Virus record (IMG/VR): IMGVR_UViG_3300010885_020782
Location: 1-64,000 of that record
Length of the DNA: 64,000 nucleotides
DNA from: a virus
Direction: 5' to 3' (one strand)
In this document: positions 8,641-52,091 of the stretch, piece by piece
Position numbering within the stretch: position 1 is the first letter of the stretch
How the letters are laid out: every line of letters begins with the position of its first letter
Notes under the pieces: generated by a model
What the model was told of the DNA's origin: nothing
Databases searched by the model: none
What the model saw: only the letters and a program-made list of their open reading frames with translations
Program-made: the position numbers and the translations under genes

Positions 8641-12459
<3,819 letters not shown>

Positions 12460-12462
12460 TAA

Positions 12463-14391
12463 ATGGCTATTGATTTTCCATCAAGTCCTCAAGTAAATGA
12501 CACTTATCAATTTGGTTTGCAAACTTGGAAGTGGGATGGAACAACTTGGAATATTGTTGTTAGTCAACTTACTGGGCCGACTGGTGCGACTGGTGCACAA
12601 GGTCCGACGGGTGCCTCATCTACTATTGCTGGTCCGACAGGACCTACTGGTCGTTACGGAAAGTTTGCCTTAGAATCATCAACACCTCCATCTAATGCTG
12701 CATCTGGTGATGCTTGGTTTGATTCTGCAACAGGACAGTTATATGTTTATTACGATAACTACTGGGTTGAATCTGCATCAAGTATTGGTGGAGTAACAGG
12801 TCCAACTGGACCAACGGGACCAACGGGACCAACAGGACCGACAGGCTCTACAGGTTCACAAGGTGTAATTGGATTAACTGGACCAACAGGCTGGACTGGC
12901 CCTCGTGGGTATGAAGCAAAAATTGCTGGAACATATGCAACTTCAGCAGCACTTATTGCTGCTCTCCCAACTGGACCATCTATTCCAACACATTCATATT
13001 TAGTTGATGGTCAAGTTTATTCTTGGTCTACAACATCTTTTACTTGGGAAAATTTAGGAAGTATTAAAGGACCTCAAGGAGTAACTGGTCCATTAGGACC
13101 AACTGGACCGCAAGGAATTACAGGACCTACAGGTTCACTTGGACCTACAGGTTCACAAGGCGCTGGTCTTACTATTGCTGGAAGTTTTAATACATATCCA
13201 GAACTTCTTGCTGCACTTCCATATGGACCAACAATGCCTGGACAAGGTTATTTAGTTCAAGGAACTTTGTATGTTTGGAATGCTTCTGAAGTTTGGGCAA
13301 ACGTAGGTGTTATTCAAGGTCCAACTGGTATTCAAGGTATTCAGGGAGTTACAGGTCCAACGGGTGCGACTGGTGCAACAGGTCTATCAATTACTGGGCC
13401 ACAAGGAATTACTGGGCCGACTGGTGCAACAGGTATTCGTGGTTTCCAGGGTGCTACTGGAAATATTGGTCCAACTGGTGTTCAAGGTCCCACTGGTCCG
13501 CAAGGTATTACTGGACCAACTGGTGCACAAGGTATTACAGGACCTATTGGGTTAACAGGACCGACTGGTATTGGTATTGCAATTAAAGGCTACTACCCAA
13601 GTTACCCTGCTTTGGCTGCTGCTAAACCTACAGGTGCTGTAGGTGATGGTTATATTATTGTAAACAACCTTTGGATTTGGAATGCTGCTGTAGCAGACTG
13701 GCAGAACGCAGGTCCTGTTGTGGGTCCGCAAGGCCCAACTGGGGTTCAAGGAATTACTGGACCTACTGGACAATCAATTACTGGGCCGACTGGTGCGACT
13801 GGTGCTGCCTCAACTGTTGCGGGACCTACGGGTCCGCAAGGTATTACAGGACCAACTGGAGCGACTGGGCAGTCTGTTACAGGACCTGCTGGTCCGACGG
13901 GTGCAACAGGTGCAGCAAGCACAGTTGTGGGACCGACTGGACCTGCTGGTCCATCTGTGACTGGTCCGACGGGTGCAACAGGTGCAGCAAGCACAGTTGT
14001 GGGACCAACTGGTGCGACAGGTGCTACGGGAGCGACTGGTGTTGGTGCGACTGGACCGACAGGAACTCCTTTCTATGAACTCACTGGAAACGTATATACA
14101 ACTCCAATTACTCTTGCTCCAGCAGATGCATTTAAATTAGTTCGTATGAATGTCGCTATTGCACACACAATAACAATTCCACCAGATGGTCAGAGCGGAT
14201 ATACCTTCCCTGTGGGAACACAGATTGTTCTTATTCAATACAACTCTGGACAAACAACTATTGCTCCAGGTGCAGGAGTTATTCTTAACTCTGAAGGTGG
14301 AAAAAGAAAACTTTCTCAGACATACGCTACAGGCTCTCTTCTAAAGATTGCTGCTAATGAATGGTTACTTGCTGGAAGTTTGGTGGGTTAA
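12463..14391 (+). CDS. Collagen-like tail fibre protein 2
   Basis: A 642-residue Gly-X-Y fibre that starts three bases after the previous gene. The N-terminal module ([16 protein letters not shown]...WKWDGTTW) is a short Trp-rich beta unit shared with the fibre gene at 15511. Four inserts follow: one FALESSTPP...YVYYDNYW type and three GSY/GTY...LYVWN...W..vG types. After the last collagen stretch, the C-terminal 110 residues ([17 protein letters not shown]...LLAGSLVG) form a different cap from that of fibre 1. The shared body with a distinct tip suggests alternative receptor-binding heads. Confidence 0.88.
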
Positions 14392-14394
14392 TCA

Positions 14395-15306
14395 ATGCTT
14401 AAAGCCCTCCATGGGATTTGGTCTTCTCGTATCCGTCTAAATGCCCCGTCTTCATATACTCTTCAAACAAGTAGTTTTGGAAGCACAGAAATATCATCAG
14501 TAGAGTTTTTAAATAATCAATTTATTGCTGTGGGGAACTCAGGTAAGTTAGCAACCTCTCCTGAAGCAATCACATGGACTCAACAAACAAGTAGTTTTGG
14601 AACATCTACCATCTGGGACGTTGCTTATGGTGCTGGTGTTTATGTTGCAGTTGGCGCTTCTGGAAAACTTGCTACCTCGGCAGATGGAAATAGTTGGACA
14701 CAAAGAACGAGTAGTTTTGGAACTTCAACAATTCTTCATGTAATTTATTCTGGCTCTCTTTTTGTTGCTGTTGGTGTTTCTGGAAAGTTAGCAACTTCTA
14801 TAGATGGACTTACTTGGACACAGCGAACAAGTAGTTTTGGAACTTCAATTATTTATGGAATTACTTATTCAGGGTCTTTATATGTTGCAGTAGGTGATGC
14901 AGGTAAACTAGCAACTTCACCAGATGCAACAACTTGGACTCAAAGAGCAAGTAGTTTTACCACAAGCATTATTTATTCAGTTTCTTATGGTTTAAATTAT
15001 TATGTTGCTTGCGGGGGAGATGGAAAAATTGCAATTTCATCAGATGGCTCTACATGGACTCAGAAGACGCAGACGGTTGGAGCGCTCACTTTGAGAGATG
15101 TAGATTTTGGTGCTGCAACATTTTTTATTGGCGGAGTAAACGGAACAACAATATATTCAACAGATGCTAATAACTGGGTACAAGTTGAGTCAAACTTTAC
15201 TGGTTCAAATGTCAACACTGTCTCATACGGATTTCCAACAGGGATACCAAAGTTTGTTGCAGCAGGTCAATTAGGGCTTTTGGGCACATCGCTCATTACT
15301 AACTAG
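14395..15306 (+). CDS. Seven-repeat beta-propeller virion protein
   Basis: The 303-residue protein consists of seven tandem repeats of about 40 residues (from about residue 21) with the pattern TSSFGTS.I..V.Y....YVAVG.SGKLATS.DG.TWTQ. The SxDGxTW element is an Asp-box-like turn, as in sialidase/BNR blades. Seven blades is a classic propeller number. The final repeat lacks the terminal DGxxW strand, and the first 20 residues could supply it to close the ring. It starts three bases after fibre 2 and lies between fibre genes, so a receptor-binding or fibre-associated role is likely. No catalytic residues are evident. Confidence 0.8.
   Translation: MLKALHGIWSSRIRLNAPSSYTLQTSSFGSTEISSVEFLNNQFIAVGNSGKLATSPEAITWTQQTSSFGTSTIWDVAYGAGVYVAVGASGKLATSADGNSWTQRTSSFGTSTILHVIYSGSLFVAVGVSGKLATSIDGLTWTQRTSSFGTSIIYGITYSGSLYVAVGDAGKLATSPDATTWTQRASSFTTSIIYSVSYGLNYYVACGGDGKIAISSDGSTWTQKTQTVGALTLRDVDFGAATFFIGGVNGTTIYSTDANNWVQVESNFTGSNVNTVSYGFPTGIPKFVAAGQLGLLGTSLITN
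14455..15300 (+). repeat. 120-bp coding repeat (propeller blades)
   Basis: Seven 120-bp units encode the 40-residue blades. Copies two to four are the most alike, sharing runs such as agtagttttggaac and gttgctgttgg. The outer copies have diverged, which suggests local duplication of the central blades. Confidence 0.8.
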
Positions 15307-15315
15307 GAGAGTGAA

Positions 15316-15471
15316 ATGGCGTATACTTATACAATAACAAGAGAACTGATTTGTGAAGTAAAATTAGATGATGTAGTTGTTGATAGTTCTGGCCCATGGG
15401 AGTCAGAGGCTTCAGCCATCAACTGGGCATCCGCATATACAAACCAATTAAATCTTGGTCTTGAATCCTAA
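15316..15471 (+). CDS. Small hypothetical protein (51 aa)
   Basis: This short gene has an AGGAGAG ribosome site six bases before ATG and fills the gap between the propeller gene and the third fibre gene. The product begins MAYTYTITREL, has a short beta-rich N-terminal half and ends with SAINWASAYTNQLNLGLES. The pattern resembles small phage proteins in which a beta-hairpin precedes an amphipathic helix. No function is assignable; its place suggests a fibre chaperone or minor tail component. Confidence 0.65.
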   Translation: MAYTYTITRELICEVKLDDVVVDSSGPWESEASAINWASAYTNQLNLGLES

Positions 15472-15510
15472 CCGTACAATTAGAACTATCTATTCTTGAG
15501 GAGAGTGTAA

Positions 15511-17199
15511 ATGGCAGCGATTGATTTTCCTAATTCGCCTTCCCTAAATCAAGAATTTAGTTCTGGAACAAATACTTGGCGTTGGAATGGCAGTGTTTGG
15601 CAAGTTGTAAAGATTGCTCCAATTGGTCCTACAGGTCCGACGGGTGCTCGTGGTCTTCAGGGAATTACTGGGCCAACGGGTGCTACGGGTGCAGTTGGTG
15701 CTGGTCTTACACTTCTTGGTTCATATGCCACGCTTAATCAACTGATTGCTGCTGACCCTGTCGGAAGTATCGGTGAGGCGTACCTTGTACAAGGTGACTT
15801 ATATGTTTGGGATGTTGTAGGCGCACAATGGCTTAATGCAGGAAACATTCTTGGTCCTACAGGACCTACAGGTTCTACTGGCCCAATATCTACAGTTCCA
15901 GGACCGACTGGCCCTACTGGAAGCACTGGTCCACAAGGAACATCTATTAATGTTCGAGGAAGTGTTGCAACTCCTCAAAATCTTCCACCTACAGGCAATG
16001 CTCGAAACGACGCATTTGTTGTTGACTCAGATGGTGATATGTATGTCTGGAGTGGCACTGCGTGGAGTAGCGTTGGACAGATTGTCGGTCCAACGGGACC
16101 AACGGGACCAACTGGCCCTACTGGAAATATTGGCCCCAAAGGCAAGGACTACGTTTCAACTGATGGAACTGGTATTCCTACAGAAACTTATATTGGTTTA
16201 GGCTCACCTACAGGACCAACCTCTGGTGATATTTGGTTTGATATTGATGACCTTGGTGCCAATGCTGCAATCTATTCTGGAACTACAGCACCAGACCCAG
16301 CAGAGTTTCAATTTTGGGCGTCTGAAGAAAATGTAATTGAAGAACTTATCTACTCCGACCCAAACCCTCCAGCAGGAACACGCTTTGAGGGAGATTTGTG
16401 GATTGATGAAGATGATATTGATTTAGATTATCTTGCTATTCAACCCACAGCACCAGATGAAGATGTAACTGTTCTCTGGGTTGACACCAGTGGTCAAGAT
16501 GAAATTTTGGAAGGTCCCCAAGGACCAACGGGACCTACGGGTCCGCAAGGTATTGCTGGGCCAGCAGGACAAAGTTTTGTTCCTGGACCAACTGGACCGC
16601 AGGGCGTGCCTGGAGCAACCAACGAAGTTGATTTTATTTTAGGAAGCCACTTAGAAAATATTTCTAGGGCTCATTTAGGAACTAACTGCGCTATCAATAT
16701 TAGACCTGATTTTGGCTCAAACCCAGCAGCAATTCTTATATCGCCAAAGGTATTGACAATTAATAGTATTTCTATGTTTTGTTTTAATGGCTCTGGCTTC
16801 TTGGACTTACCTGGAGCAACATACGCTAGATATCTTCTTTACACAATAAATTTACAGACTGGCGGTATGACTCTTGTTGCACGAACCAATAGTGATACAA
16901 GTTTGATGACCGAGACAGGTGCTTGGTATACCCGTTCATTTAGTATTTTTGGCGGGTATCCATCATCTTATACTTTAGTCCCTGGTCAAGCCTATGCTGT
17001 TGTTTTCTCAACAGATACATCCGCCACAACTTTACTTTTGGCTGGTATGGACCTAGGTAAACCTGCGTTTGCAAACACTATTGGGCTAGGAATTCCAGGA
17101 AATACCATTTCGGGAACAATCTCCAGAGGAGACTCTTTACTAACACCAACTTTACTTTCTACATATGCCAACCTTGTCCCCTGGGTCAGGGTATTTTAG
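15511..17199 (+). CDS. Collagen-like tail fibre protein 3
   Basis: A 562-residue fibre with the same Trp-rich N-terminal module as fibre 2 ([13 protein letters not shown]...WRWNGSVWQ). It carries two LYVWD/MYVWS-type inserts and shorter collagen stretches. From about residue 205 an acidic, non-collagen region contains two copies of a GDIWFDIDD / GDLWIDEDD motif. After a last collagen piece, the C-terminal 190 residues (from [15 protein letters not shown]) form a predicted beta-sandwich with alternating hydrophobic strands, probably the receptor-binding tip. The AGGAGAG ribosome site supports the start. Confidence 0.86.
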
Positions 17200-17837: not shown

Positions 17838-20800
17838 ATGTCAAGAAGAGTAATCAGAGGTACGACTTATACCTTTAATCCATCAACTAAAACTATTGTC
17901 ATCCCTCGTGTTGTGCAGCAAGAGCGTCTTATGCTCATTACCAACATCACTAGGGGTACAATTATTTATAACTTTGCCGAATCAACTTTGGCTGCACAAT
18001 CATTTGTATATAGCAATGACCCAGTTGACCCGTCAACAACAGTAGTTTTAAACTCCTCTCTTTCTACATCAGGGATGTTGTCCACAGACAAACTTGCAAT
18101 TATGGTGGACGAGTTAAATGAGACAGTAACTTTCTCCGACACTCTTCTTGATGCTGTAGATAAACTTCGCGTTGCCCCTCCACAGTCTTTGATGGATACA
18201 GACTTTGAATACTCTGTTCAGCCATCTAAGTGGGAAGCACTTTTATTGATGAATAACTACCCTTCATTCTTTGCAAAGGGTACTGGCGGTAACTCATTTG
18301 AAAACGTTACTATTGAAGGAAACGGTCAAGGACCTCGTTCTTTAGTTACTATAACAACTTTAGCATTCCACAATTTATTGCCAGGAAGCATTGTTTCAAT
18401 TCAAGATACAACTAATTTTCGTGCTGAAGGAACATTCCTTGTTAACAGCGTTCCAACACCAACAACATTTACATACTTTGCTCGTGGACTAGTTTCTGGT
18501 TCAATCGCTATTGCTAACTACTCAACCGTATATGGTGGAGATACATTTGATAATGCTCATATTCCTGGTGGTGTAGCAAGTACATCAACACTTAATGGTT
18601 TTGGAGCAACAACAAGCGGTGGAAATCCTTCAATAATCACACTTTCATTTACAAACCCTCATGGTTTGTTCCCAGGTACACCTATTGTTGTTAACAACAC
18701 TAGCGGTATGAATGGTAACTGGATTGTTAAGACAGTTCCAGACCCACGCTCATTTACATTTGAAATTTCTGACCAAGTTGTTACAGCAGTTTCAACATCG
18801 TCATCATCAGTTGTCTATACAAAGCCAGAAGGTTATGTACAGCATCGCCCAACAGACGGCGGCGTGTCTCTTACAACTCTTAGCAACGCAATGGGTTCAC
18901 AGACAATTCGTCAGACTCGTCGTTATTTCCGATATCAGTCAGGTAAGTCAATCCAGTTCTCAACTGGTGCAAAGTTTACTCCTTCATTTGACATTGTTCG
19001 TCTTTTTGCAAGTGATGTTGGCTCCGCTGGAGTTAAGACAGTTACTGTAGAAACTCTTCAAGACCATGGTCTACAACCAGGAGCAACAATTCTTGTAGAA
19101 GGTATTGAAACTGTTGCTTTAAATAATCCTTACAATGGCACATTTACTGTCTTTACTGTTACAGACACAAATACTTTTTCATATCAAGTAACTCTATCTT
19201 CTGCTCTACCTCTAACAGATTTAACTCCTGGAGGAACTAATCGTTCAATTACAGTTTCTAACTGGATTGGAGCAACTACTCGTACAGGTATGTTTGATGA
19301 CCAGAATGGTTTCTATTTTGAGTATGATGGTCAATATATGTATGCAGTTCGTCGCTACTCAAATACGGAGTTGGCGGGAAAAATTGCCGTTAATCAACGT
19401 TCAGGACAAGTTATTGGAACAGGAACAATTTTTAGAAAGCAACTAACAGTTGGCGATAAAGTTGTTATTCGTGGTCAAACCTATCTTGTAAATAATATTC
19501 ACAGCGATACAGAGTTATATATTAACCCAACTTATCGCGGTGAAAACTTAACTAATGGTCGTATCCTAAAAACTCAAGAAATTCGTATTCGTCAAGACCA
19601 ATGGAACTTTGATAAGATGGATGGAACAGGTCCTTCAGGATACGTTCTAGACCCTCGTAAGATGCAGATGGTTTACATTGACTATACTTGGTACGGCGCT
19701 GGGTTTATTCGTTGGGGATTCAGGACAATTCGCGGTGATGTGGTTTATTGCCATCGTATGGCTAACAACAACATTAACAATGCCGCATATCAGCGCTCAG
19801 GTAACCTACCTGCTCGCTATGAAGTATTTAATGAGCCACGCAGTGCACGTTTGACTTCAGGTGAAACAAATGCTGTTGGCTCAACGCTGCAACCAAATGC
19901 AACAACTATGTATGTTGACAATGTTACTGGCTGGGCACCAAGCGGATATCTTTTTGTAAAAAATGACTCTGCTTGCGAAATGATGTCTTATAGTCAAATT
20001 GGAGCGTATAGTTCTACTGCAAAGGGCTTCCCTGTAACAGTTGCTCGTCGTCAGACATACTCAATTTACTTCCCTGGTCAAACAGTTATTTTGGCAGCAG
20101 GAAGTTCATCTACAGCCTTATCATTTAACCCAGACACCACTCTAGGTGGAAATGGCGCTGCTCAGGTATCTGTTCAGACCGTCACACAAACCTGCGCCCC
20201 TCAAATCTCCCACTGGGGTTCATCTGTAATTATGGATGGTCGTTTTGATGATGACTCAAACTACACATTTACTGCTGGTATGCAGAAGACATTGACAGTT
20301 ACTACAGGTGTAGCAAGACCTCTAGTTGCCGTTCGTCTTGCTCCTTCAGTAGATAACGCGATTGCTAAAAACTTTGGTAACCGTGAACTTGTTAACCGTA
20401 TGCAGATGAAACTATCTTCGATGGGTATTTCTGCTAACGGACAGTTCCTCATCAGAGGTATCCTAAATCCAACAACAATTTCATATAACAACCACGCTGC
20501 GGGTTCATTTGATGTTACTGGATATACAGTTGTTACCGCAGTTGCGCCGTTTGCATCAGTTGCAAATACTGCGTTTCAGTCATATATCAACCTAAGTAGC
20601 GTTCAAAACTTAGCAGTTGGTATGCAGGTAAGAGGAGCAGGTACTACTGGAAGAGTTGTCACTGGAGCAGTTATTACCGGTATTTTTGGAACAACTATTC
20701 AGTTGTCACAGCCGATTACTGCTGGTGCTACCTTGAGTGGAGAAACAATCAACTTCACTGGAACTCCTGCATACAACGGATTACCTATTGACTGGCAGCG

Positions 20801-21158
20801 TGACCGTGTTGGTTCAGGTTCTTTGGCTCAGGTGCTTTACTTTGACAATTCTGGTCCATATGGAGGATTAGTTCCTGGAAGTGCTGGTACAACTTTCCCT
20901 GCTACTGGCTCGCTTTCAGGTGGTGACGAAGTGTTCTCGTTCTATACAGAAAACTCTGGTTCCACAGCGTTCAACGTTACTAACTATGAATTGAAGACAA
21001 TTCGAGAACTTGGTAACTCAATTCTCAGCGGTAACGGTAACCCTGCTAGCCCAAGTTACCCAAACTCTCCTGACGTGCTAGTTATTACGGCTGCCAACAT
21101 TGGTACTGCTTCGGCTAACATCTCTGCCCGTGTCTCTTGGACTGAGGCTCAGGCATAA
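17838..21158 (+). CDS. Large modular virion protein
   Basis: The 1,106-residue protein resembles large structural proteins of cyanophage-like myoviruses and siphoviruses (SLMDTDFEYSVQPSKWEAL near residues 115-133). Three HGL-type beta modules are visible near residues 168-221, 265-314 and 399-453 (e.g. NPHGLFPGTPIVVNN, QDHGLQPGATILVEG). A G-M-x-V module follows near 912-974. The C-terminus NSPDVLVITAANIGTAS...ISARVSWTEAQA is typical of this family. A large middle part (about 480-700) with W-, Y- and R-rich strands is probably the conserved core. It is likely a tail or baseplate-attached protein; its exact place is not determinable. Confidence 0.8.
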   Translation: MSRRVIRGTTYTFNPSTKTIVIPRVVQQERLMLITNITRGTIIYNFAESTLAAQSFVYSNDPVDPSTTVVLNSSLSTSGMLSTDKLAIMVDELNETVTFSDTLLDAVDKLRVAPPQSLMDTDFEYSVQPSKWEALLLMNNYPSFFAKGTGGNSFENVTIEGNGQGPRSLVTITTLAFHNLLPGSIVSIQDTTNFRAEGTFLVNSVPTPTTFTYFARGLVSGSIAIANYSTVYGGDTFDNAHIPGGVASTSTLNGFGATTSGGNPSIITLSFTNPHGLFPGTPIVVNNTSGMNGNWIVKTVPDPRSFTFEISDQVVTAVSTSSSSVVYTKPEGYVQHRPTDGGVSLTTLSNAMGSQTIRQTRRYFRYQSGKSIQFSTGAKFTPSFDIVRLFASDVGSAGVKTVTVETLQDHGLQPGATILVEGIETVALNNPYNGTFTVFTVTDTNTFSYQVTLSSALPLTDLTPGGTNRSITVSNWIGATTRTGMFDDQNGFYFEYDGQYMYAVRRYSNTELAGKIAVNQRSGQVIGTGTIFRKQLTVGDKVVIRGQTYLVNNIHSDTELYINPTYRGENLTNGRILKTQEIRIRQDQWNFDKMDGTGPSGYVLDPRKMQMVYIDYTWYGAGFIRWGFRTIRGDVVYCHRMANNNINNAAYQRSGNLPARYEVFNEPRSARLTSGETNAVGSTLQPNATTMYVDNVTGWAPSGYLFVKNDSACEMMSYSQIGAYSSTAKGFPVTVARRQTYSIYFPGQTVILAAGSSSTALSFNPDTTLGGNGAAQVSVQTVTQTCAPQISHWGSSVIMDGRFDDDSNYTFTAGMQKTLTVTTGVARPLVAVRLAPSVDNAIAKNFGNRELVNRMQMKLSSMGISANGQFLIRGILNPTTISYNNHAAGSFDVTGYTVVTAVAPFASVANTAFQSYINLSSVQNLAVGMQVRGAGTTGRVVTGAVITGIFGTTIQLSQPITAGATLSGETINFTGTPAYNGLPIDWQRDRVGSGSLAQVLYFDNSGPYGGLVPGSAGTTFPATGSLSGGDEVFSFYTENSGSTAFNVTNYELKTIRELGNSILSGNGNPASPSYPNSPDVLVITAANIGTASANISARVSWTEAQA

Positions 21159-21929: not shown

Positions 21930-24900
21930 ATGGCTATTTCAGGTAGCAAAGATTTAATTGTATTTCCTAATGACAACTCTGGACGCTTCTCGATTAAAGA
22001 AGTCCAGTACAACTCAAACGGCACATTTACCGTACCAACTGGCATCACAGCAGTAGAAGTTATTGCTGTAGGTGGTGGCGGTGGTGGTGGCGGTGGCGCT
22101 GACATTATTGCTGGTGGTGGTGGTGGCGGAGGACAGGTTGTCCAGCGTCAAGTTCCTGTTACTCCAGGCACAACATACAACGTTTCAATTGGTGCAGGTG
22201 GACATGGTGGTCAAGGTGCAGTAACAGCCATTACTGACTACATCAACACTATGCCTGGCGGCGTAGGTGGAACAACAGTATTTGGTGGCTCAACCCCTGT
22301 AAACCTTTTGATGAACCCTTCTTTTAACAAGGGAACTTCTCTCTGGGAAGCAAATAATATTCAGCAAGTTCAGAAGACTGCTACTGGTACTTCAGGTCTG
22401 TTTACAATTGATATTCGTCCAGATAATACTGGAATTTTAGTTGGTATGACAGTAACTGGTACAGGTATTGGTTCCAACGCAGTTGTGACTCAAATTGCAA
22501 CAAACGTAATTACACTATCTGTTATCAACTCAGGTACCGTATCTGGAACACTTACATTCCTTCTACAGTCTTGCACAATCACACCAACAAGCATTATTTA
22601 CAACGACAACATTAACCTTTCTGCATCTCTGGGAACAAATCAATCAAATAACTTGATTCAGGCTCAGTACGCTCAGTTAGAAGACGTTGCTCTTACTGGT
22701 TCTTCATTCTTCGTACTTGATAACTTGGCTTCTATTACTGCTCAGGTATCTTCAAACCCTTATCCAAAACTTGCTGAAATGGTTTCACCAGCAGCGATTG
22801 GTACATCTTCAGGTGCTAACGCACTTATCTGTACTAACTCAACAACTGGTGCTCGTCTAGTAGGTCTTTCAACTTCAGGCTCAGGTGCTCTATCTGGCGG
22901 AACAACTGGTTTTGCTTATGACCCTAACGCAACCTACACAGTTTCAATGTATGTTTACCACACAAGCCCTACACCACAGAACCTTGTTGTTCAGTTGCGT
23001 ATTGGTGATGGTTCTAACTACCCAACAAATAACCAGGGAACTTCTTCTGGTACAGGAACTGTTTACTCATCTGGTTCTCCAGCATCTGGTGGATATAACG
23101 TAACTCAGGTTACTATTACAGCACCACTATCTGGTTACGGTGGAACAATTGCTAAGACAATTTCTGGTCTACAAGGAAACAACTTTATTGCTGTAGACAA
23201 TGCTGACGGTCTCTTCGTAGGTCAGGCAGTTTCTGGTACTGGTATTGGTGCAGCAGCAACTGTTGTAAACATTGCTGGAACAACAATTACACTTTCTGCT
23301 AACAACTCTGGAGCAGTAAGCGGAACAGGTACTTTTGCACACACAGGTATTGTTTCTGGTGCATGGCGCCGTGTTTCTGCAACATTTACTGGTCTTCCAG
23401 CATATGCAGCAGGTCTAACTGCTAAGTGGGCCTATATTGGACTTCTTGTTCCTGCTAACGTAACTATGTTGTTTGATAACGTTCAGGTTGAACTTGGAAA
23501 CTCTGCTACAGCATATCGTCCACCAACCTACAACAGTGGTGTTGGTCTTAAAATGATTTCAACTGTAACTACTGGTGCAAACATGGAAGTTTCACATGAT
23601 TTCATCAAAGCAACACCAGGACAGATTTACACAGGCTCATTCTATGCTTGGGCATGGAAAGAATATAGAACTACTAATGCCTACCTTGAGTTCTATGATG
23701 TTGACCAGAATTTTATTTCTCGTACATCAGGAACCGCATCTCTTCTAGGAACAACTGGAACAAAGATGGGCTCTACAAGCAACCTTCAGGCAACACCTGG
23801 GCGTCGTTATACAGTAAGTGGTACAGCACCAGGAAACGCAGTTTATATGCGTCTTGGAGCAACATTTGCTTTTGCTGCTAACAACGCCACTGGTGGTTCT
23901 GAGCCTGAGTTCTACTTAGCATATGCTCAATTAGAAGCAGCAGGAGGAGTTACATTCTACAAGGATGGAAATACTTCTGGATATACATGGGCTGGCGAAG
24001 CACATTACTCTGCAACAATTACTTCACCTCTTCTTGTAGCCAAGGGCGGTGGTGGTGGTGGAACTTACAACACTAACCTTCGTTTCTGGCAGTTCGGTCT
24101 TCCAGGCGCTAACGCAGGTGGACACGGAATCACAAACTCATCTACAACACCTACATATGGTGGTGGTGGTGCTGGTGCTGGTGGTCCTGGTGGAAACGCT
24201 ATTTCTTACTCAGCAGTAGAAAGCGCTAGCGGTACAACTTCTGGCTATGGAACATCTGGCTCAACAATGCTTCAGAATGTTCAGCAGCAGGGTAATCAAG
24301 GCGGATACGCAGTTTCTTCAACTAGCGCATCAATCCCTACTTACGGTGGAGATGGTGGTCCAGGAGTTCTTGTTAATGGAACTGGAACACTTGCTGTTAC
24401 ACAACTTGGTGGCGGTGGCGGTGGAGGCGGATGGAATGCCTTTGCACAGGGTTCAAACAACAACCCAGGTCGCGGTCAAGCAGGTGGCGGTAAGGGTGGA
24501 CACACTTACATTGCATACTTAACTGGTCAGGGTGGCGGTCTTATTACAGATTACTACGCTCGCGGTCTTGATGCTGCTCCTAATACAGGTTCTGGTGGTG
24601 GTGGTGCAGGTTCAAACGGTGGTGTTTCACCTTTGACACTTCAAACACACTCAGCATCGCAGTTTATTAACTTCGAGACATCGGGTGCTCCTAACCAAGA
24701 TATGACCCGCTGGGCTCCTGTATATAACGCTACAACAGCGCTTCTTACTGGTTCTACTAAGTACGGTACTAACGCACTTCGTACAACAATTCAGGATGCT
24801 GGAAATGCCAAGGTAATTACATCTTGGACAGATTTCCCAATCTTGCCTCGTACACAGTTGTTCTTCTCAGGCTTCTCATTCCGTTTGTCTACTGGTTCAA

Positions 24901-25244
24901 ACCCAGGAACACCAAACCTAGGAACAAAGGTTGCTCGTCCTACTATTCAGTGGTATGACATCAACAAGGTCCTTATTCGTGAAGACCGTCCATCAGTTAA
25001 CGCAGCACTTGTTGCATCAACATATTCTGATACAGTTGCAGGAACAATTTCAACATGGCAGCCACCTTTGGCTCCAGCCAACTGTGCATACTTCCAAGTT
25101 GCAGTTGAAATGTTGAATATGTCTGCTGGTGACGTTTGCGATATTGACTTCAACACAACTCAGTATTACCCATACGTTCCTACAGGTGGAAATGGTGCTG
25201 ACGGTACTGTTATCATTCGTTACACCGAGAAGTTCACAGCGTAA
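21930..25244 (+). CDS. Glycine-rich adhesin with carbohydrate-binding-like modules
   Basis: The 1,104-residue protein opens with a short cap, then a poly-Gly block (about residues 50-135, runs of nine and seven Gly). The block is interrupted by beta modules (about 135-690) and resumes near 690-915 with many GGGG runs. The inserted region holds two CBM4/9-like sandwiches (e.g. TYTVSMYVYH...GAWRRVSATF...VQVELGNSATAY), and the related SWTDFPILPRTQLFFSG fold lies near the C-terminus. Two copies of the GIGSNAVV...SGTLTF module occur near 151-211 and 404-470. Glycine-rich sandwiches form the tip of T4-like gp38 adhesins, so this is probably a receptor-binding tip protein. Confidence 0.82.
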   Translation: MAISGSKDLIVFPNDNSGRFSIKEVQYNSNGTFTVPTGITAVEVIAVGGGGGGGGGADIIAGGGGGGGQVVQRQVPVTPGTTYNVSIGAGGHGGQGAVTAITDYINTMPGGVGGTTVFGGSTPVNLLMNPSFNKGTSLWEANNIQQVQKTATGTSGLFTIDIRPDNTGILVGMTVTGTGIGSNAVVTQIATNVITLSVINSGTVSGTLTFLLQSCTITPTSIIYNDNINLSASLGTNQSNNLIQAQYAQLEDVALTGSSFFVLDNLASITAQVSSNPYPKLAEMVSPAAIGTSSGANALICTNSTTGARLVGLSTSGSGALSGGTTGFAYDPNATYTVSMYVYHTSPTPQNLVVQLRIGDGSNYPTNNQGTSSGTGTVYSSGSPASGGYNVTQVTITAPLSGYGGTIAKTISGLQGNNFIAVDNADGLFVGQAVSGTGIGAAATVVNIAGTTITLSANNSGAVSGTGTFAHTGIVSGAWRRVSATFTGLPAYAAGLTAKWAYIGLLVPANVTMLFDNVQVELGNSATAYRPPTYNSGVGLKMISTVTTGANMEVSHDFIKATPGQIYTGSFYAWAWKEYRTTNAYLEFYDVDQNFISRTSGTASLLGTTGTKMGSTSNLQATPGRRYTVSGTAPGNAVYMRLGATFAFAANNATGGSEPEFYLAYAQLEAAGGVTFYKDGNTSGYTWAGEAHYSATITSPLLVAKGGGGGGTYNTNLRFWQFGLPGANAGGHGITNSSTTPTYGGGGAGAGGPGGNAISYSAVESASGTTSGYGTSGSTMLQNVQQQGNQGGYAVSSTSASIPTYGGDGGPGVLVNGTGTLAVTQLGGGGGGGGWNAFAQGSNNNPGRGQAGGGKGGHTYIAYLTGQGGGLITDYYARGLDAAPNTGSGGGGAGSNGGVSPLTLQTHSASQFINFETSGAPNQDMTRWAPVYNATTALLTGSTKYGTNALRTTIQDAGNAKVITSWTDFPILPRTQLFFSGFSFRLSTGSNPGTPNLGTKVARPTIQWYDINKVLIREDRPSVNAALVASTYSDTVAGTISTWQPPLAPANCAYFQVAVEMLNMSAGDVCDIDFNTTQYYPYVPTGGNGADGTVIIRYTEKFTA

Positions 25245-40801: not shown

Positions 40802-43801
40802 CTATACCGTAATCTTCAATGTAGAGATGCGACGGTCTTCTTTCCATTCACTAATAAGTTCAAGGTCAACTTTTTCAGGGAAAGCAACACCATCTGGAAC
40901 ATTTACTTTATAACCAACTATTTTACGCACAATTACGTCCCCTCTAGGCTCTAAGTCACTAGCAAGACGCATACGAACAAACTCATCATCAATAATAAGT
41001 GAGCACCAATCTCCAGGTAAAAAGTCTCCAACATACGGCCCAATTGAACCGTTAATTGCAATTGTAAAATTGCCCTCTGGCGGACGTGCTTCGTCAACAA
41101 AATCTTTAGCATATGAATAAAGAGCACTCTCTCCATAGGCTGTTGTCTGCGTATCATTTTTTGTTTCAACTTGGTCAAGGACTGGCCATCCTTTATCCAT
41201 TAAATCTGTAGATGCTGCTGCTGCATATGGCTGACTTGGGTCCCCATCAATATTGTCAGCGTTTCCAGCAACCCACATACGAGTAGCAGAGTTTTCTGCC
41301 GTCTCTGTTATCCCAAACTCAAGAACATTCCCTGGATATTCAAAGACATACTGGTCTGCGCCAAGAACACTAATAGGGTGCACCGAGCCAATATTTCCAG
41401 TAGATGCGCTTCCAGGAACATTTGCCTTAATTGCACTAAATGTGAATGTTGTTGTAGTTGGTGTTCCCGTTACCACCTGAGTTCCATCAAAAGATGTACC
41501 TACATCACTAACTACAATTTCTTGTCCTATAACTAACCCGTGGGCAGCGGCTGTAGTCAATGTTGCTACATTAGAAACAAGAGTTTTGTAGGTAACAGAT
41601 ATTCTATTAGGAGGTGGAATAAAGGGAACAAAGGTAAGTGTTTTAGAAAATTGACCAATATTTTTATCAAAATCACAGTCAATACGATACTCAAAACCAT
41701 TTACATCTTTTGAAAATTCTTCAAGAATTTCTCCAAATGATTTTAAATCAGAGCCTCTAAATATTTGCTGAGAGACCCCAATGTACTTACCGCTCAAGTC
41801 TTGAGTAACATCTATGCCAATATCTGAATTTCCAGAGTAGGCTCCAAAAGTTCCAGCAACTGCTCTTCCACCCCATTTAACTGTGCCGCCATAGACTGCC
41901 TCAGCCTGAGCGTTGACTATTGAAGTTGAGTTAAATTTAAAAGTTCTAGTGTTAACAATTGTTGATACGGTTTTGACGCCATCATAGTCAGAGCCTACAT
42001 TTTCAATAACAACTTTTTTACCCTGTGTAAGACCGTGATTAGTTGACGTAGTGATAAGGCCAGATTTGTATGAGACAGAGCCATAATCTGTTACGTTAAT
42101 TACTCCAGCCATGCTGTTTGTCTGTTGAGCCTGATAATACAAAGTTGAAGGTGCATTTAAGGGGACAACAAATGTAATTGTTCCACTTGCTGTTCCGTTA
42201 TTAGTTACTCCAGTCGAGTAAACTTTTCCAGCAGCATATCCTCCTCCAGAACTTTGAATCCAAAAGTTATAACCAGGGGAATTAATAGTAAGAGTGTATG
42301 TATTTCCACGAATAAAATATAAATTAGGATTATTAGTTGCTGTAGCAGAACCTTGAATTGTAGAGGCATAAGCAAGGTTATTACTATTTGTGAAGGCGTA
42401 TGTAGTCTGCTCTCCCACTTTAGTTACTGCGGTAGAGGCAACATCACGAGAAGTTTTAGCAAAACTAAACTGTGTAGTAGAAGGAACTGCAATCACTGTC
42501 TGAGGACCATTAAGAACTGATTCATAGAAGAAGGTGAGTGTTCCAGTCACAGTTCCAACGTTCTCTACTCCTAAAGTAAGAATAAGTCCGTTAATAGATT
42601 GAATAGTTGCGTTAGAGCCAATACCTGCACCAGTCACACCCATACCAACTAGAAGACCACTATTCGAACCTACAATAGTAACTGTTACCGCTCCTGAACT
42701 TCCAGAAGCAGCGGTTTTTGTTACAGAGATTGTATTAGTAATATTTGAAATAGATACAGCATCTCCCACAGCCAAACCATGAGCAGATGATGTTGTCATT
42801 GTTGCTATGTTATTTAAGACTTGCTTAGTTGTAATTTTTAGTGTTGTTGTCTGTATTTCAGCGGATGTAATGTTGTATGTAGTTAGTGGAGTTAGGGCAG
42901 TGCTAGCAAAACTTGATGTTACTCCAGCAGGTTTGACTACAAAACTTGTTGTTGTTGGTATTGCTGTTATAACTTGATATCCATTAAGTAGTGCATCAAC
43001 ATCAACTAATTCTACTTGCTGACCTAAAAGTAGGTCGTGAGGTAGGGCGGTAGTAAGAGTTGCAGTCCCTGTAGCCATCACTTTATTTGTTAGAGAATAT
43101 AGCAATTCGTTTGCTGGTTTTATTGTTTCGTTAGCAAAAGCAAGATTAGAAAAGTCATCTGACATATACCCAATTAAGTCACGGGCTAGGTCATATGTGT
43201 CAACAATTGTTCGTGCAAGACCAGTTGTTGATGGACTAGAGGCTAAAGTAACTCCGCTTACACCAAAAGTAAAACTTGCCGGGGATGGGACCGTAGAAAT
43301 TGTCTTATCTCCGTTGAGAGCGGGGTTTAAGTTACGAACTCTTACTTTTTCTCCTGGTTTAAATCCATGGTCTACCTCTGTATATATAGTCGCTATTGAG
43401 CCGTTAGCCTCATAGCGTGAGCAATAATATTGCTCTGAGCCGTAATAAAGGGTCTGCCACAATGCACGATGATATAAATAACTTACAAACTCATTGGCAT
43501 CAACACTAAGAGTTTTATTTGTTGGAGAATATTGACGTCCCCAGATAATGCCACCCCAAACGCAAACGCCATCTCTAAGAACATAAAGGGCAGTTTTTCC
43601 AGGCATTGTGTTGTCATAAAGTTCCAAATGTGTTGTTGCCTCAATAAGTGGAATAGTTCCAGAAAAAGAACCAGCCTTACTTAAAGCACGTTCATAGGAT
43701 ACACCTATAAAAGGAATTTCTGCAAGAACTTCGTTGGTCAACAAATCAGCAACGTAGTAGCGATACTCAGGGGGAGTTATCGAGTGATAATCAATTGCCA
43801 T
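40802..43801 (-). CDS. Large modular minor tail protein
   Basis: The 999-residue protein begins with a conserved tail domain (EVLAEIPFIGVSYERALSKAGSF...GGIIWGRQYSP) and ends with one (LEPRGDVIVRKIVGYKVNVPDGVAFPEKVDLELI), typical of actinophage minor tail proteins. Between them are five HGL-type beta modules (about residues 130-190, 242-304, 324-467, 575-643, 737-803). The third is split by an inserted GIGSNATI module (about 367-424). A cupredoxin-like module (about 485-574) lacks its usual His and Cys copper ligands. It follows Dit in the operon, so it likely sits at the tail tip. Confidence 0.85.
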   Translation of the reverse strand: MAIDYHSITPPEYRYYVADLLTNEVLAEIPFIGVSYERALSKAGSFSGTIPLIEATTHLELYDNTMPGKTALYVLRDGVCVWGGIIWGRQYSPTNKTLSVDANEFVSYLYHRALWQTLYYGSEQYYCSRYEANGSIATIYTEVDHGFKPGEKVRVRNLNPALNGDKTISTVPSPASFTFGVSGVTLASSPSTTGLARTIVDTYDLARDLIGYMSDDFSNLAFANETIKPANELLYSLTNKVMATGTATLTTALPHDLLLGQQVELVDVDALLNGYQVITAIPTTTSFVVKPAGVTSSFASTALTPLTTYNITSAEIQTTTLKITTKQVLNNIATMTTSSAHGLAVGDAVSISNITNTISVTKTAASGSSGAVTVTIVGSNSGLLVGMGVTGAGIGSNATIQSINGLILTLGVENVGTVTGTLTFFYESVLNGPQTVIAVPSTTQFSFAKTSRDVASTAVTKVGEQTTYAFTNSNNLAYASTIQGSATATNNPNLYFIRGNTYTLTINSPGYNFWIQSSGGGYAAGKVYSTGVTNNGTASGTITFVVPLNAPSTLYYQAQQTNSMAGVINVTDYGSVSYKSGLITTSTNHGLTQGKKVVIENVGSDYDGVKTVSTIVNTRTFKFNSTSIVNAQAEAVYGGTVKWGGRAVAGTFGAYSGNSDIGIDVTQDLSGKYIGVSQQIFRGSDLKSFGEILEEFSKDVNGFEYRIDCDFDKNIGQFSKTLTFVPFIPPPNRISVTYKTLVSNVATLTTAAAHGLVIGQEIVVSDVGTSFDGTQVVTGTPTTTTFTFSAIKANVPGSASTGNIGSVHPISVLGADQYVFEYPGNVLEFGITETAENSATRMWVAGNADNIDGDPSQPYAAAASTDLMDKGWPVLDQVETKNDTQTTAYGESALYSYAKDFVDEARPPEGNFTIAINGSIGPYVGDFLPGDWCSLIIDDEFVRMRLASDLEPRGDVIVRKIVGYKVNVPDGVAFPEKVDLELISEWKEDRRISTLKITV

Positions 43802-43828: not shown

Positions 43829-44974
43829 TTACGCTAGCCAGCCAGAGCGGTATTCCACAGATAGTTTAGCAGTCGAGTTAGCACTCCCGTTGTCGTAGAA
43901 ACTAATAACATTTTCTCCTGGAGATAGTGTCACCCAGTCGTTGTATACCTCTAACTTCATACGAGCGCCGTAATACTCTCCATTAAGAGCAGTCTCTCGA
44001 TTGTATGTGTCAATTTCAAGAATGTCTGGACCAAAAGTATATGTTCCAGAGACTGAAACTACGTTGACAGTATCAGTAGCAGTTCCAATAAAAGTAAATG
44101 TATTACTTGTTCTTGCTGTGATATATCTGTCGCCATCTATACCCGTTCCTAAACTAAATACTTCTACAGAATCGCCTATTTGCAGGATATGAGCAGCAGA
44201 TGTAGTCAGGGTAACAACGCCACCAGTGATAGATTTAGAGATAATTGAGCCAGATACTATTGTTCTTAGTGGCTCAACAATTGTTATTGATTCACCATTT
44301 GTTTCATTAAGAATAATTGCTGGACCAGTGATTGGACCTGTAACTCTAAAGTAAGCACTGACAGGGTAGTCACCTTGATTTGTTAACACGGATTTACCGC
44401 TTCTTAGTGGAGTTGTTGATTTTGCAAGAATTTCTTCAACATCATATCCATCTTGATTAAGTTCATTCCAAGAATACTTTATAGGGTCAGCAGCACGAAG
44501 ACCGATGGAAAAATCAATTCGACCACGAGCACTGACTGTCTCAAAGTTTGGTTCTCCACTAAGGCGAACCCAAGATGCTTTAAGTGGGTTTTCATTTGTT
44601 TTTAACCAGCCTCCTTGCCTTACTAAGTTAATTTGAGCAACTAAACGTCTTCGAGCCTCTGCCATCAATGACGGGTCAGTACACAGGATAGAACCTTCTA
44701 AGGTCAAATCACGAGCGTTGTAGCGACCTTTTACATCATATGAGCCATCTGCCCATCCACGTTTAATATCTGGCATATCAGGTGCTGGAGGACTCCACCA
44801 ACCTTTAATATCGGTGACTACCCAAAGAACACCATAGTCATCAACAGTATTTAATACAAAATCATTGAGGATAATGTCTTCCTGCAACTTCATACCAGTC
44901 AGGTGCGGCTGTGGAAGTGGAGTCAGCGCTTGCTGAGTAATCCTATTTTTCTGTGCTTGATTAAGTTGTGCCAT
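43829..44974 (-). CDS. Distal tail (Dit-like) protein
   Basis: The 381-residue protein has the layout of siphovirus Dit/phage tail family proteins: LQEDIILNDFVLNT..DYGVLWVVTDIKGWW, SYDVKGRYNARDLTLEGSI and LRAADPIKYSW near residue 165. After residue 240 a HGL-type beta module (VTLTTSAAHILQIGDSVEV...SNTFTFIG) is inserted before the C-terminal sandwich ending KLSVEYRSGWLA. Dit links the tail tube to the tip and fibres. It follows the tape measure gene directly (TAATG-like overlap). Confidence 0.85.
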   Translation of the reverse strand: MAQLNQAQKNRITQQALTPLPQPHLTGMKLQEDIILNDFVLNTVDDYGVLWVVTDIKGWWSPPAPDMPDIKRGWADGSYDVKGRYNARDLTLEGSILCTDPSLMAEARRRLVAQINLVRQGGWLKTNENPLKASWVRLSGEPNFETVSARGRIDFSIGLRAADPIKYSWNELNQDGYDVEEILAKSTTPLRSGKSVLTNQGDYPVSAYFRVTGPITGPAIILNETNGESITIVEPLRTIVSGSIISKSITGGVVTLTTSAAHILQIGDSVEVFSLGTGIDGDRYITARTSNTFTFIGTATDTVNVVSVSGTYTFGPDILEIDTYNRETALNGEYYGARMKLEVYNDWVTLSPGENVISFYDNGSANSTAKLSVEYRSGWLA

Positions 44975-51047: not shown

Positions 51048-52091
51048 TTAGACTGTTGGGTCCTGTGATGAAGCAATGATGAAGTCAACAGGTGAATCAG
51101 CGTTATAAGTGATTCCACCAGGAACGTTATAACCTGTTGTAGATGACTGATAAGCAAAACTATTTACAGGTAAATAACCACGCTGGCGAACTGCTGTTCC
51201 AACTGGTGATACTGCTGCTGAAGCAACATCTGTTGCTGTCTTAGCATATGTAAATGTGTTGTTGGTCTTATTAGTAATTAGATAAGTACCATTGAATGTA
51301 GAATCTACACCAGCAACAGTAACGGTCTGGCCAATATCAAAGCCATGCGCTGCTGAAGTAGTAAGAGTTGCTACGTTAGAAGTCAAAGACTTGTTGCTAA
51401 CTGATACTGACTTAGCGTCAAACCAGTCGTAGAAGCCCTTGAGACCTGTTGGAGCCCATGAACCGCGAGCGTATGAGTATGGACGCTGCGCTGCAACTGG
51501 GAACTCCCAACGACCATCTGGACCTGTTCCAAAGAACTGGTTTCCAAGGCCGTAACCTTCAAATGTGTTTGCAAGCATTCCGTTTTCAATTACACGGTCA
51601 CCTGACTGGCGTAACTTGACGTATGGGAATACCCAGTAGAAGTATGGATTTGTTGTTGCACGCTTTCCATCTTTTACTGCAAATGACCAAACTTCTAGAG
51701 CAACACCGTTTCCTGCTGGATTATCGCCAACTGCTGGTGCGGCCCAGCCGACTGACTGATTGTCAGGTGTTCCAAGTGTTCCAAAGTTCTTACGAAGTAG
51801 CAAGCCACCTGAAAGAAGTGATGTTAATTCTGGGTCTGGTTCGCAAATTGCGAGTTCCATTGTGATGCGCTTGAGTGTGTCTGGTGCCTTGTATGAAACG
51901 CAAATTGTTCCATCGGCTGACTTCTCAACAATTTCGTCACCCTCTTCGTATTCTGGGGTAAATGAAGCGCGAAGGAACGCCGAGGTTGTGTAACTGTCAC
52001 CATCGTTAGTGAGTAGGTTACCCGAGGCGTCGAGTCGTGTGACTCGAATCGCCACACCTTGGACGGAAGCCGCGTAGTCCTGAGTGGCCAT
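51048..52091 (-). CDS. Major tail protein with C-terminal beta module
   Basis: The 347-residue tube protein has the actinophage major tail pattern: VQGVAIRVTRLDASGN, YSEEGDEIVEK-like acidic loop, DTLKRITMELAICEPDPELTSLLSGG and NPYFYWVFPYVKLRQSGDRVIENG. A C-terminal HGL-type Ig-like module (about residues 235-315, VATLTTSAAHGFDIGQTVTVAG...NNTFTYAKT) decorates the tube, as Ig-like domains do in lambda gpV. It lies before the connector, an unusual order, because most siphoviruses place it after the neck genes. Confidence 0.88.
   Translation of the reverse strand: MATQDYAASVQGVAIRVTRLDASGNLLTNDGDSYTTSAFLRASFTPEYEEGDEIVEKSADGTICVSYKAPDTLKRITMELAICEPDPELTSLLSGGLLLRKNFGTLGTPDNQSVGWAAPAVGDNPAGNGVALEVWSFAVKDGKRATTNPYFYWVFPYVKLRQSGDRVIENGMLANTFEGYGLGNQFFGTGPDGRWEFPVAAQRPYSYARGSWAPTGLKGFYDWFDAKSVSVSNKSLTSNVATLTTSAAHGFDIGQTVTVAGVDSTFNGTYLITNKTNNTFTYAKTATDVASAAVSPVGTAVRQRGYLPVNSFAYQSSTTGYNVPGGITYNADSPVDFIIASSQDPTV

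Follow-up and report, generated by a model that had tools for sequence, protein, structure and literature searches.

A GM β-module nested in a phage minor tail protein, and its filled and empty sites in other virion proteins

Ig-like domains of the Big_1, Big_2, I-set and FN3 types are found on phage virions (Fraser et al. 2006, reviewed in PMC9022992), and they sometimes sit between the strands of a host domain, as in the YSD1 tail tube protein (PMC9022992). The "evolved" Dit of the 936 lactococcal phages carries the carbohydrate-binding insertion BppA (PMC6669499). Passages of a study of phage protein domains describe their ongoing gain and loss, with receptor-binding and baseplate proteins among those affected (Smug et al. 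2023, PMC10684548); a term search of its text returned no passage on nested insertion of a module like the one described here. Accessory β-domains that occur promiscuously on phages, and mosaicism at the domain level, are already known (PMC9022992, PMC10684548).

The module in the present phage is named GM from its G-M-x-V-T-G-x-G-I core. Like the phage Ig-like domains, GM is a small β-domain that occurs in many unrelated virion proteins and is dispensable in relatives. Unlike them, since they are mostly C-terminal, GM appears to lie in a turn of its host and to be related to FCCH-like barrels. As with the evolved Dit and BppA, a domain within a tail-tip protein is present or absent among relatives; BppA, however, is a carbohydrate-binding module of one protein family, whereas GM is a different small β-domain of many families, and its binding is putative. 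Compared with domain mosaicism as those passages present it, one specific module is tracked here through filled and empty sites. The GM family, its intercalation into host turns and its recurrent gain and loss appear to be new, as judged on the non-subscription literature.

The window, that is, the whole stretch of DNA analysed, is 64,000 nucleotides long and covers positions 1 to 64,000 of IMG/VR record IMGVR_UViG_3300010885_020782 (127,375 bases). It encodes a 999-aa minor tail protein with an array of five FCCH/HGL-like β-modules (aa 133-188, 242-300, 329-457, 576-632 and 742-798, the third being split), and the neighbouring genes are a Dit-like gene and a tape-measure gene (Table 1). The nearest isolated relatives of the protein belong to Actinomycetia phage DSL-LC01 and Microbacterium phages. 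The Microbacterium phage homologues (L019-L023) have far longer FCCH-like arrays, in proteins of 1241-1450 aa versus 659 aa in DSL-LC01, showing that array length is strongly variable in this family. FCCH-like modules are also present in the Dit, so identified by SPP1_Dit and phrog_33 matches, and in the major tail protein, so that at least four virion proteins of the phage share one module type. Three such modules lie within a phrog_5838 structural protein at 18339-19205 of the window.

Table 1. Modules of the minor tail protein and related features in the window.
Feature	Position	Strand	Evidence
Minor tail protein (Tal/hub-like), 999 aa	40802..43801	minus	ORF; phrog_1885 match E 8.6e-30
FCCH/HGL-like module 1, uninterrupted	43238..43408	minus	HMM 66.9 bits
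FCCH/HGL-like module 2, uninterrupted	42896..43078	minus	HMM 69.3 bits
FCCH/HGL-like module 3, N-terminal half, aa ~328-356, ...ATMTTSSAHGLAVGDAVSISNITN	42734..42820	minus	Alignment with uninterrupted modules and homologues; HMM
Inserted GM module, aa ~357-428, TISVTKTAASG...GLLVGMGVTGAGIGSNATIQSINGLILTL...GTVTGTLTFFYES	42518..42733	minus	GM profile; AlphaFold2
FCCH/HGL-like module 3, C-terminal half, aa ~429-462, VLNGPQTVIAVPSTTQFSFAKTSRDVASTAVTKV	42416..42517	minus	Alignment; HMM
FCCH/HGL-like module 4, uninterrupted	41897..42076	minus	HMM 69.3 bits
FCCH/HGL-like module 5, uninterrupted	41411..41581	minus	HMM 73.6 bits
Additional β-rich module of ~100 aa, aa ~474-572, between modules 3 and 4	42086..42382	minus	Presence/absence; tblastn to cyanophages; phrog_677
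FCCH/HGL-like module inside distal tail protein (Dit) 43829-44974	44063..44230	minus	HMM 53.8 bits
FCCH/HGL-like module in major tail protein 51048-52091	51213..51386	minus	HMM 66.9 bits; phrog_792 for protein
Second GM copy, Gly-rich/CBM-like protein 21930-25244, between WEANNIQQ and CTITPTS	22365..22571	plus	94.9 bits, E 3.6e-28
Third GM copy, protein 21930-25244, loop before SGAWRRVSATF of CBM_4_9-like domain	23145..23345	plus	85.2 bits, E 4.2e-25
Fourth GM-like copy, divergent, near C-terminus of structural protein 17838-21158	20556..20759	plus	26.4 bits, E 8.1e-7

In module 3, the β2 region (AVSISNIT) and LNGPQTVIAV are held apart by about 72 residues. The first-pass annotation had described the third HGL-type module as interrupted between VSISNI and LNGPQTVIAV by a complete module, after which the host resumes, and the order VSISNIT, ~72 aa, LNGPQTVIAV was found as stated, the boundaries being accurate to about 3 residues. 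Profile scores agree with both halves of that description. The host profile was built from uninterrupted modules only: relatives supplied modules 1, 2, 4 and 5, and also module 3 where its site is empty, and the modules of the Dit and the major tail protein were added. The neighbouring complete modules 1, 2, 4 and 5 are put at 74-81 bits, and at 66.9-73.6 bits as HMM matches in Table 1. The intact module 3 region scores 24.7 bits, and removal of 72 aa from residue 355 raises this to 62.4 bits, the top result of 1,832 in-silico deletions (median 26.6 bits). The eight best deletions each remove exactly 72 aa and start at residues 352-359. The insert itself is matched by a GM profile at 82 bits (E 3.9e-24, 42518-42730), and at 54.3 bits by a GM profile built without the tail-protein copies.

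The insert recurs in frame in contigs from other metagenomes, where it is 100% identical (L009) or 87-89% identical (L010-L013), and its dN/dS of 0.04-0.19 shows, at the codon level, purifying selection. Because of these in-frame copies and dN/dS values the insert is not an assembly error, and both chance and assembly error are excluded as sources of the nesting. The splitting of module 3 by a complete ~72-aa GM module is thus confirmed.

AlphaFold2 was run on aa 305-470 with 22 homologues and gave a mean pLDDT of 82.6. The insert blocks reach pLDDT ~92-97 and the host core ~76-92; by this check, proposed with the original observation, the insert is predicted with confidence to fold as a separate unit. 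DSSP strands E44-62 and E116-137 continue from the host into the insert, which places the insert in the model atop a prolonged host hairpin. From the same DSSP assignment the N- and C-terminal strands of the insert appear to be adjacent. Strands that run unbroken over the boundary, and a pTM of 0.62, would also suit two modules in tandem linked by a long loop, or a single fold with two lobes, instead of a nested domain. We consider this very unlikely, for the host halves score as one module only after they are rejoined, homologues have the host uninterrupted, and hosts with other folds also carry this insert. A single continuous fold had been named as the outcome that would speak against nesting; strands do cross the boundary, yet the host halves and the insert are separately conserved and separately scored modules.

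GM is defined by the core T-I-T-[VL]...G[LI]xxG[MQ]xVxGxGI...VxSIxGTTITL...VSGTxTF, about 65-75 aa long, and the tail-protein insert conforms to it (alignment A5). Among 20 GM copies, Pfam gave no match of weight, with one weak match to Big_1 (E 0.025). In PHROG the copies matched phrog_10467 (19 of 20), phrog_5838 (11 of 20) and phrog_6005 (9 of 20), which are whole-protein clusters that contain GM and do not define it as a module. The only plausible PDB match of the A5 profile was 9n71, the tail tube of phage Mystique (E 0.0055), also the top Foldseek match; polyubiquitin, which gave the best PDB matches of that profile, was rejected as an artefact of summed repeats. The whole tail protein had no match in a PDB sequence search or in NCBIfam.

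The host modules resemble known families below threshold. With E1_FCCH (PF16190, curated cut-off 29.5 bits) the whole protein scores 18.6 bits and the rejoined module 17.2 bits; with the endosialidase β-barrel (PF12195, cut-off 35 bits) the host module scores 13.9 bits, and 3 of 17 modules match weakly. Foldseek matches of the host module to UBA6/UBA1 and endosialidases were of low significance, with prob up to 0.85; those to UBA6/UBA1 had prob 0.28-0.85 and E 0.14-0.3. This sub-threshold likeness belongs to the host modules, and GM matches neither family directly.

The GM and FCCH-like profiles align with an hhalign score of 27.6 (P 2.4e-5); none of 300 column shuffles scored above 15.6. By this profile comparison GM and its FCCH-like host module are distantly related. 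Such a relationship would also follow if the insert were a diverged duplicate of a neighbouring FCCH-like module from the same array, but this origin is disfavoured and extremely improbable: the insert is far nearer to GM elsewhere (53% to the copy at ~22368 in the same phage; E 3.8e-16 with the non-tail GM profile), and alone it scores -1.3 bits with the FCCH-like profile.

A profile search of the record found three more GM copies beyond the tail-protein insert. The two in protein 21930-25244 are kept in nine relatives. The later of them sits in the same loop as the GM of another locus, L118, in which GM excision lifts the CBM_4_9 match from 28.4 to 40.2 bits. Excision of this later copy from protein 21930-25244 gave no CBM_4_9 gain in Pfam (24.1 to 21.9 bits), so nesting in this protein is argued only from the L118 parallel and the conserved flanks. 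In a second AlphaFold2 model, of protein 21930-25244, both GM copies are confidently predicted, the one at 22365-22571 with pLDDT mostly of 79-95, and share the same six-strand order; their surroundings are poor, with pLDDT 57 overall and the host domain badly modelled. Foldseek aligned this model with the CBM4/CBM16 folds 2zez and 1ulo (prob 0.92-0.98). The targets have about 143-152 residues and the alignments 196-245 columns, which is compatible with a CBM-like host that holds a large insertion. As for the divergent copy in protein 17838-21158, the aligned cyanophage homologues of S-RSM4, S-RIM32 and Sf-FP1 have a short loop where it sits.

The uninterrupted version of module 3, which the first-pass annotation had suggested seeking in metagenomes, does exist. 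An alignment-based scan covered 80 relatives of the tail protein; 46 of 64 homologues are empty at the module 3 site and 18 are filled. In L027, L030, L032, L034, L035 and L036 the β2 strand is followed immediately by S/T-N-L/F-NG; a short loop is all that DSL-LC01 and the outgroups show at the site. The insert is carried by the clade around the window, throughout which it is fixed, and by L024, L026, L031, L033, L037-L043, L046 and L047. All outgroups are empty.

When the variable region is left out of the tail-protein tree, two changes are enough to explain the pattern: the insert would have been gained where a 25-member clade (support 100/100) begins and cleanly lost in seven members. Several independent gains are also possible. 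This history leaves room for a single ancient insertion at the tail site, inherited vertically since and later lost in one subclade, with no recent move there. We give that account a lesser but substantial likelihood, and it can hold together with the explanation preferred below. The AU test on the insert tree does not reject one clade of tail-site inserts (p 0.25). The account covers the tail site only, and other host proteins require at least two to four changes. Moreover, the window and L031 are 59% identical in the host module and 31% in the insert; insert identity falls more than host identity between subclades, though within subclades the two are equally conserved. This steeper divergence hints at exchange. 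If the L024 insert is constrained to group with the inserts found in its host clade, the tree is worse by 6.5 log units (p 0.043). A recent copying of the tail-site insert from the phage's own copy at ~22368 is not claimed, because the insert tree pairs the tail-site insert with the orthologous insert of L026 and one origin is not rejected.

The first-pass annotation had gone further and read the nesting as direct evidence that the module moves as a unit. The movement stands, but a single nesting does not prove it, because all of the window clade carries the insert, perhaps by vertical inheritance, and the tail-protein relatives offer no close filled/empty pair for the module 3 site. The evidence that GM moves as a unit comes from other hosts and homologues, namely 19 host-context clusters together with clean presence and absence in three kinds of protein, two unrelated ones from podoviruses and a structural protein of the cyanophage type.

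The sample comprised 97 viral loci and three cyanophage loci. It holds 113 GM copies in 19 host-context clusters, cyanophage tail fibres included; clusters were joined by flank similarity, and truly unrelated hosts are therefore somewhat fewer than 19. One module is thus seen in many unrelated virion proteins and is missing in close relatives.

In a podoviral head/neck protein family (phrog_2941), GM takes the place of a Gly/Pro turn, KQGN-PGG-QQSSQTGPW. Site 1 either holds GM or is empty, site 2 either holds a second β-module or is empty, and each of the four resulting states occurs, in 67, 31, 19 and 10 of 128 distinct rows, one row being unclear at site 2. An unrooted tree of the family requires 7 GM changes, of which at least 4 are forced by well-supported branches, and the closest filled/empty pairs have DNA flanks 80-83% identical. 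The module at site 2 (L234:1501-2487, L129:1501-2709) reads ISTTGTVGSI...GLAPGDIITATNGTG...GGVYTVDTVVSNTSITF, and 13 changes of its presence are counted on the tree. Podovirus ctfne034 (L128:1195-2181), with an empty GM site, carries near its N-terminus a further insertion that is FCCH/GM-like, INTSTGVITTSADPSTLLMPGDFIGPSTI...

The SU10 head-tail adaptor (PF24175) has GM in 41 members and lacks it in 56, with at least 2 changes on an unrooted tree. The filled L303 and the empty L387 are 89% identical outside the site, which reads SLAIY-PSGGGS-YIYLL in L387 and SLAVF-PNNS[GM]QGD-YLYLL in L303. GM excision joins the SU10_adaptor Pfam match from two stretches into one.

Unrooted counts are blind to gain versus loss. 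The host proteins might therefore have been filled ancestrally, with GM deleted in many lineages. Loss as the common event is nonetheless unlikely, as all tail-protein outgroups and the cyanophage homologues of the 17838-21158 protein are empty, and repeated deletions that leave an intact turn would still require equally many earlier GM insertions.

The reading we prefer, and regard as highly probable, is that GM is an autonomously folding β-domain, inserted in the β2-β3 turn of FCCH-like barrel 3 and gained or lost as one in-frame cassette. GM is probably a portable β-domain that replaces β-hairpin turns, a mode inferred from predicted secondary structure and from the turn-like, Gly/Pro-rich empty sites. 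In such a process, a GM of ~65-72 aa would enter the β2-β3 turn of the third FCCH-like barrel of the tail-tip protein. Its end strands, lying side by side, would let it take the place of the hairpin turn and leave the host undisturbed; the host strands would pass into the end strands of GM, and the host fold would close below it. The same single in-frame cassette would be gained and lost in many unrelated virion proteins.

The filled/empty DNA pairs of phrog_2941 showed no convincing target-site duplication and nothing beyond the module itself, and in filled/empty DNA pairs no mobility enzyme was seen with GM, which does not qualify as a self-mobile genetic element. Because neither enzyme nor target duplication was seen, GM likely spreads when co-infecting phages recombine, not through a dedicated enzyme. 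A probe of bacterial and archaeal genomes with one sequence, a weak test, found no GM relative.

A broader reading, to which we assign an even chance, is that GM represents an unnamed family of turn-replacing β-domains in circulation among tailed phages of fresh and marine waters, where it would serve as an evolvable system of surface decoration. With the same balance of likelihood, ~70 residues with adjacent end strands would replace the turn of almost any exposed β-hairpin; a single cassette would thereby move among unrelated phages, entering the proteins of tail tips and fibres, head-tail adaptors and further structural proteins, and occasionally a distant cousin of itself. More tentatively, and somewhat below an even chance, GM could decorate the virion exterior and add weak binding to the host surface or to glycans, in line with the surface projection and adhesion that have been put forward for Ig-like domains (PMC9022992) and for the carbohydrate-binding inserts that Dit can carry (PMC6669499).

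Arguments for domain nesting usually start from one structure; in the present case several protein families offer both filled and vacant versions of a site. With flanks up to 89% identical, the filled and vacant sites make the entry of new domains into intact folds directly testable. GM is a candidate natural insertion-tolerant cassette. It is missing from domain databases, and it may explain some of the unannotated insertions in head-tail adaptors and tail proteins.

Two further features of the window were observed. The β-rich module of ~100 aa at 42086-42382 reads YFIRGNTYTLTI...NFWIQ...GTITFVVPLNAPSTLYYQ and by eye has a cupredoxin-like look; among tail-protein relatives it is found in the window clade and L024/L026 only, and it is common to cyanophage baseplate and tail-fibre proteins. 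At 8701-17199 the window contains a run of several long collagen-like proteins with GPTG/GATG repeats.
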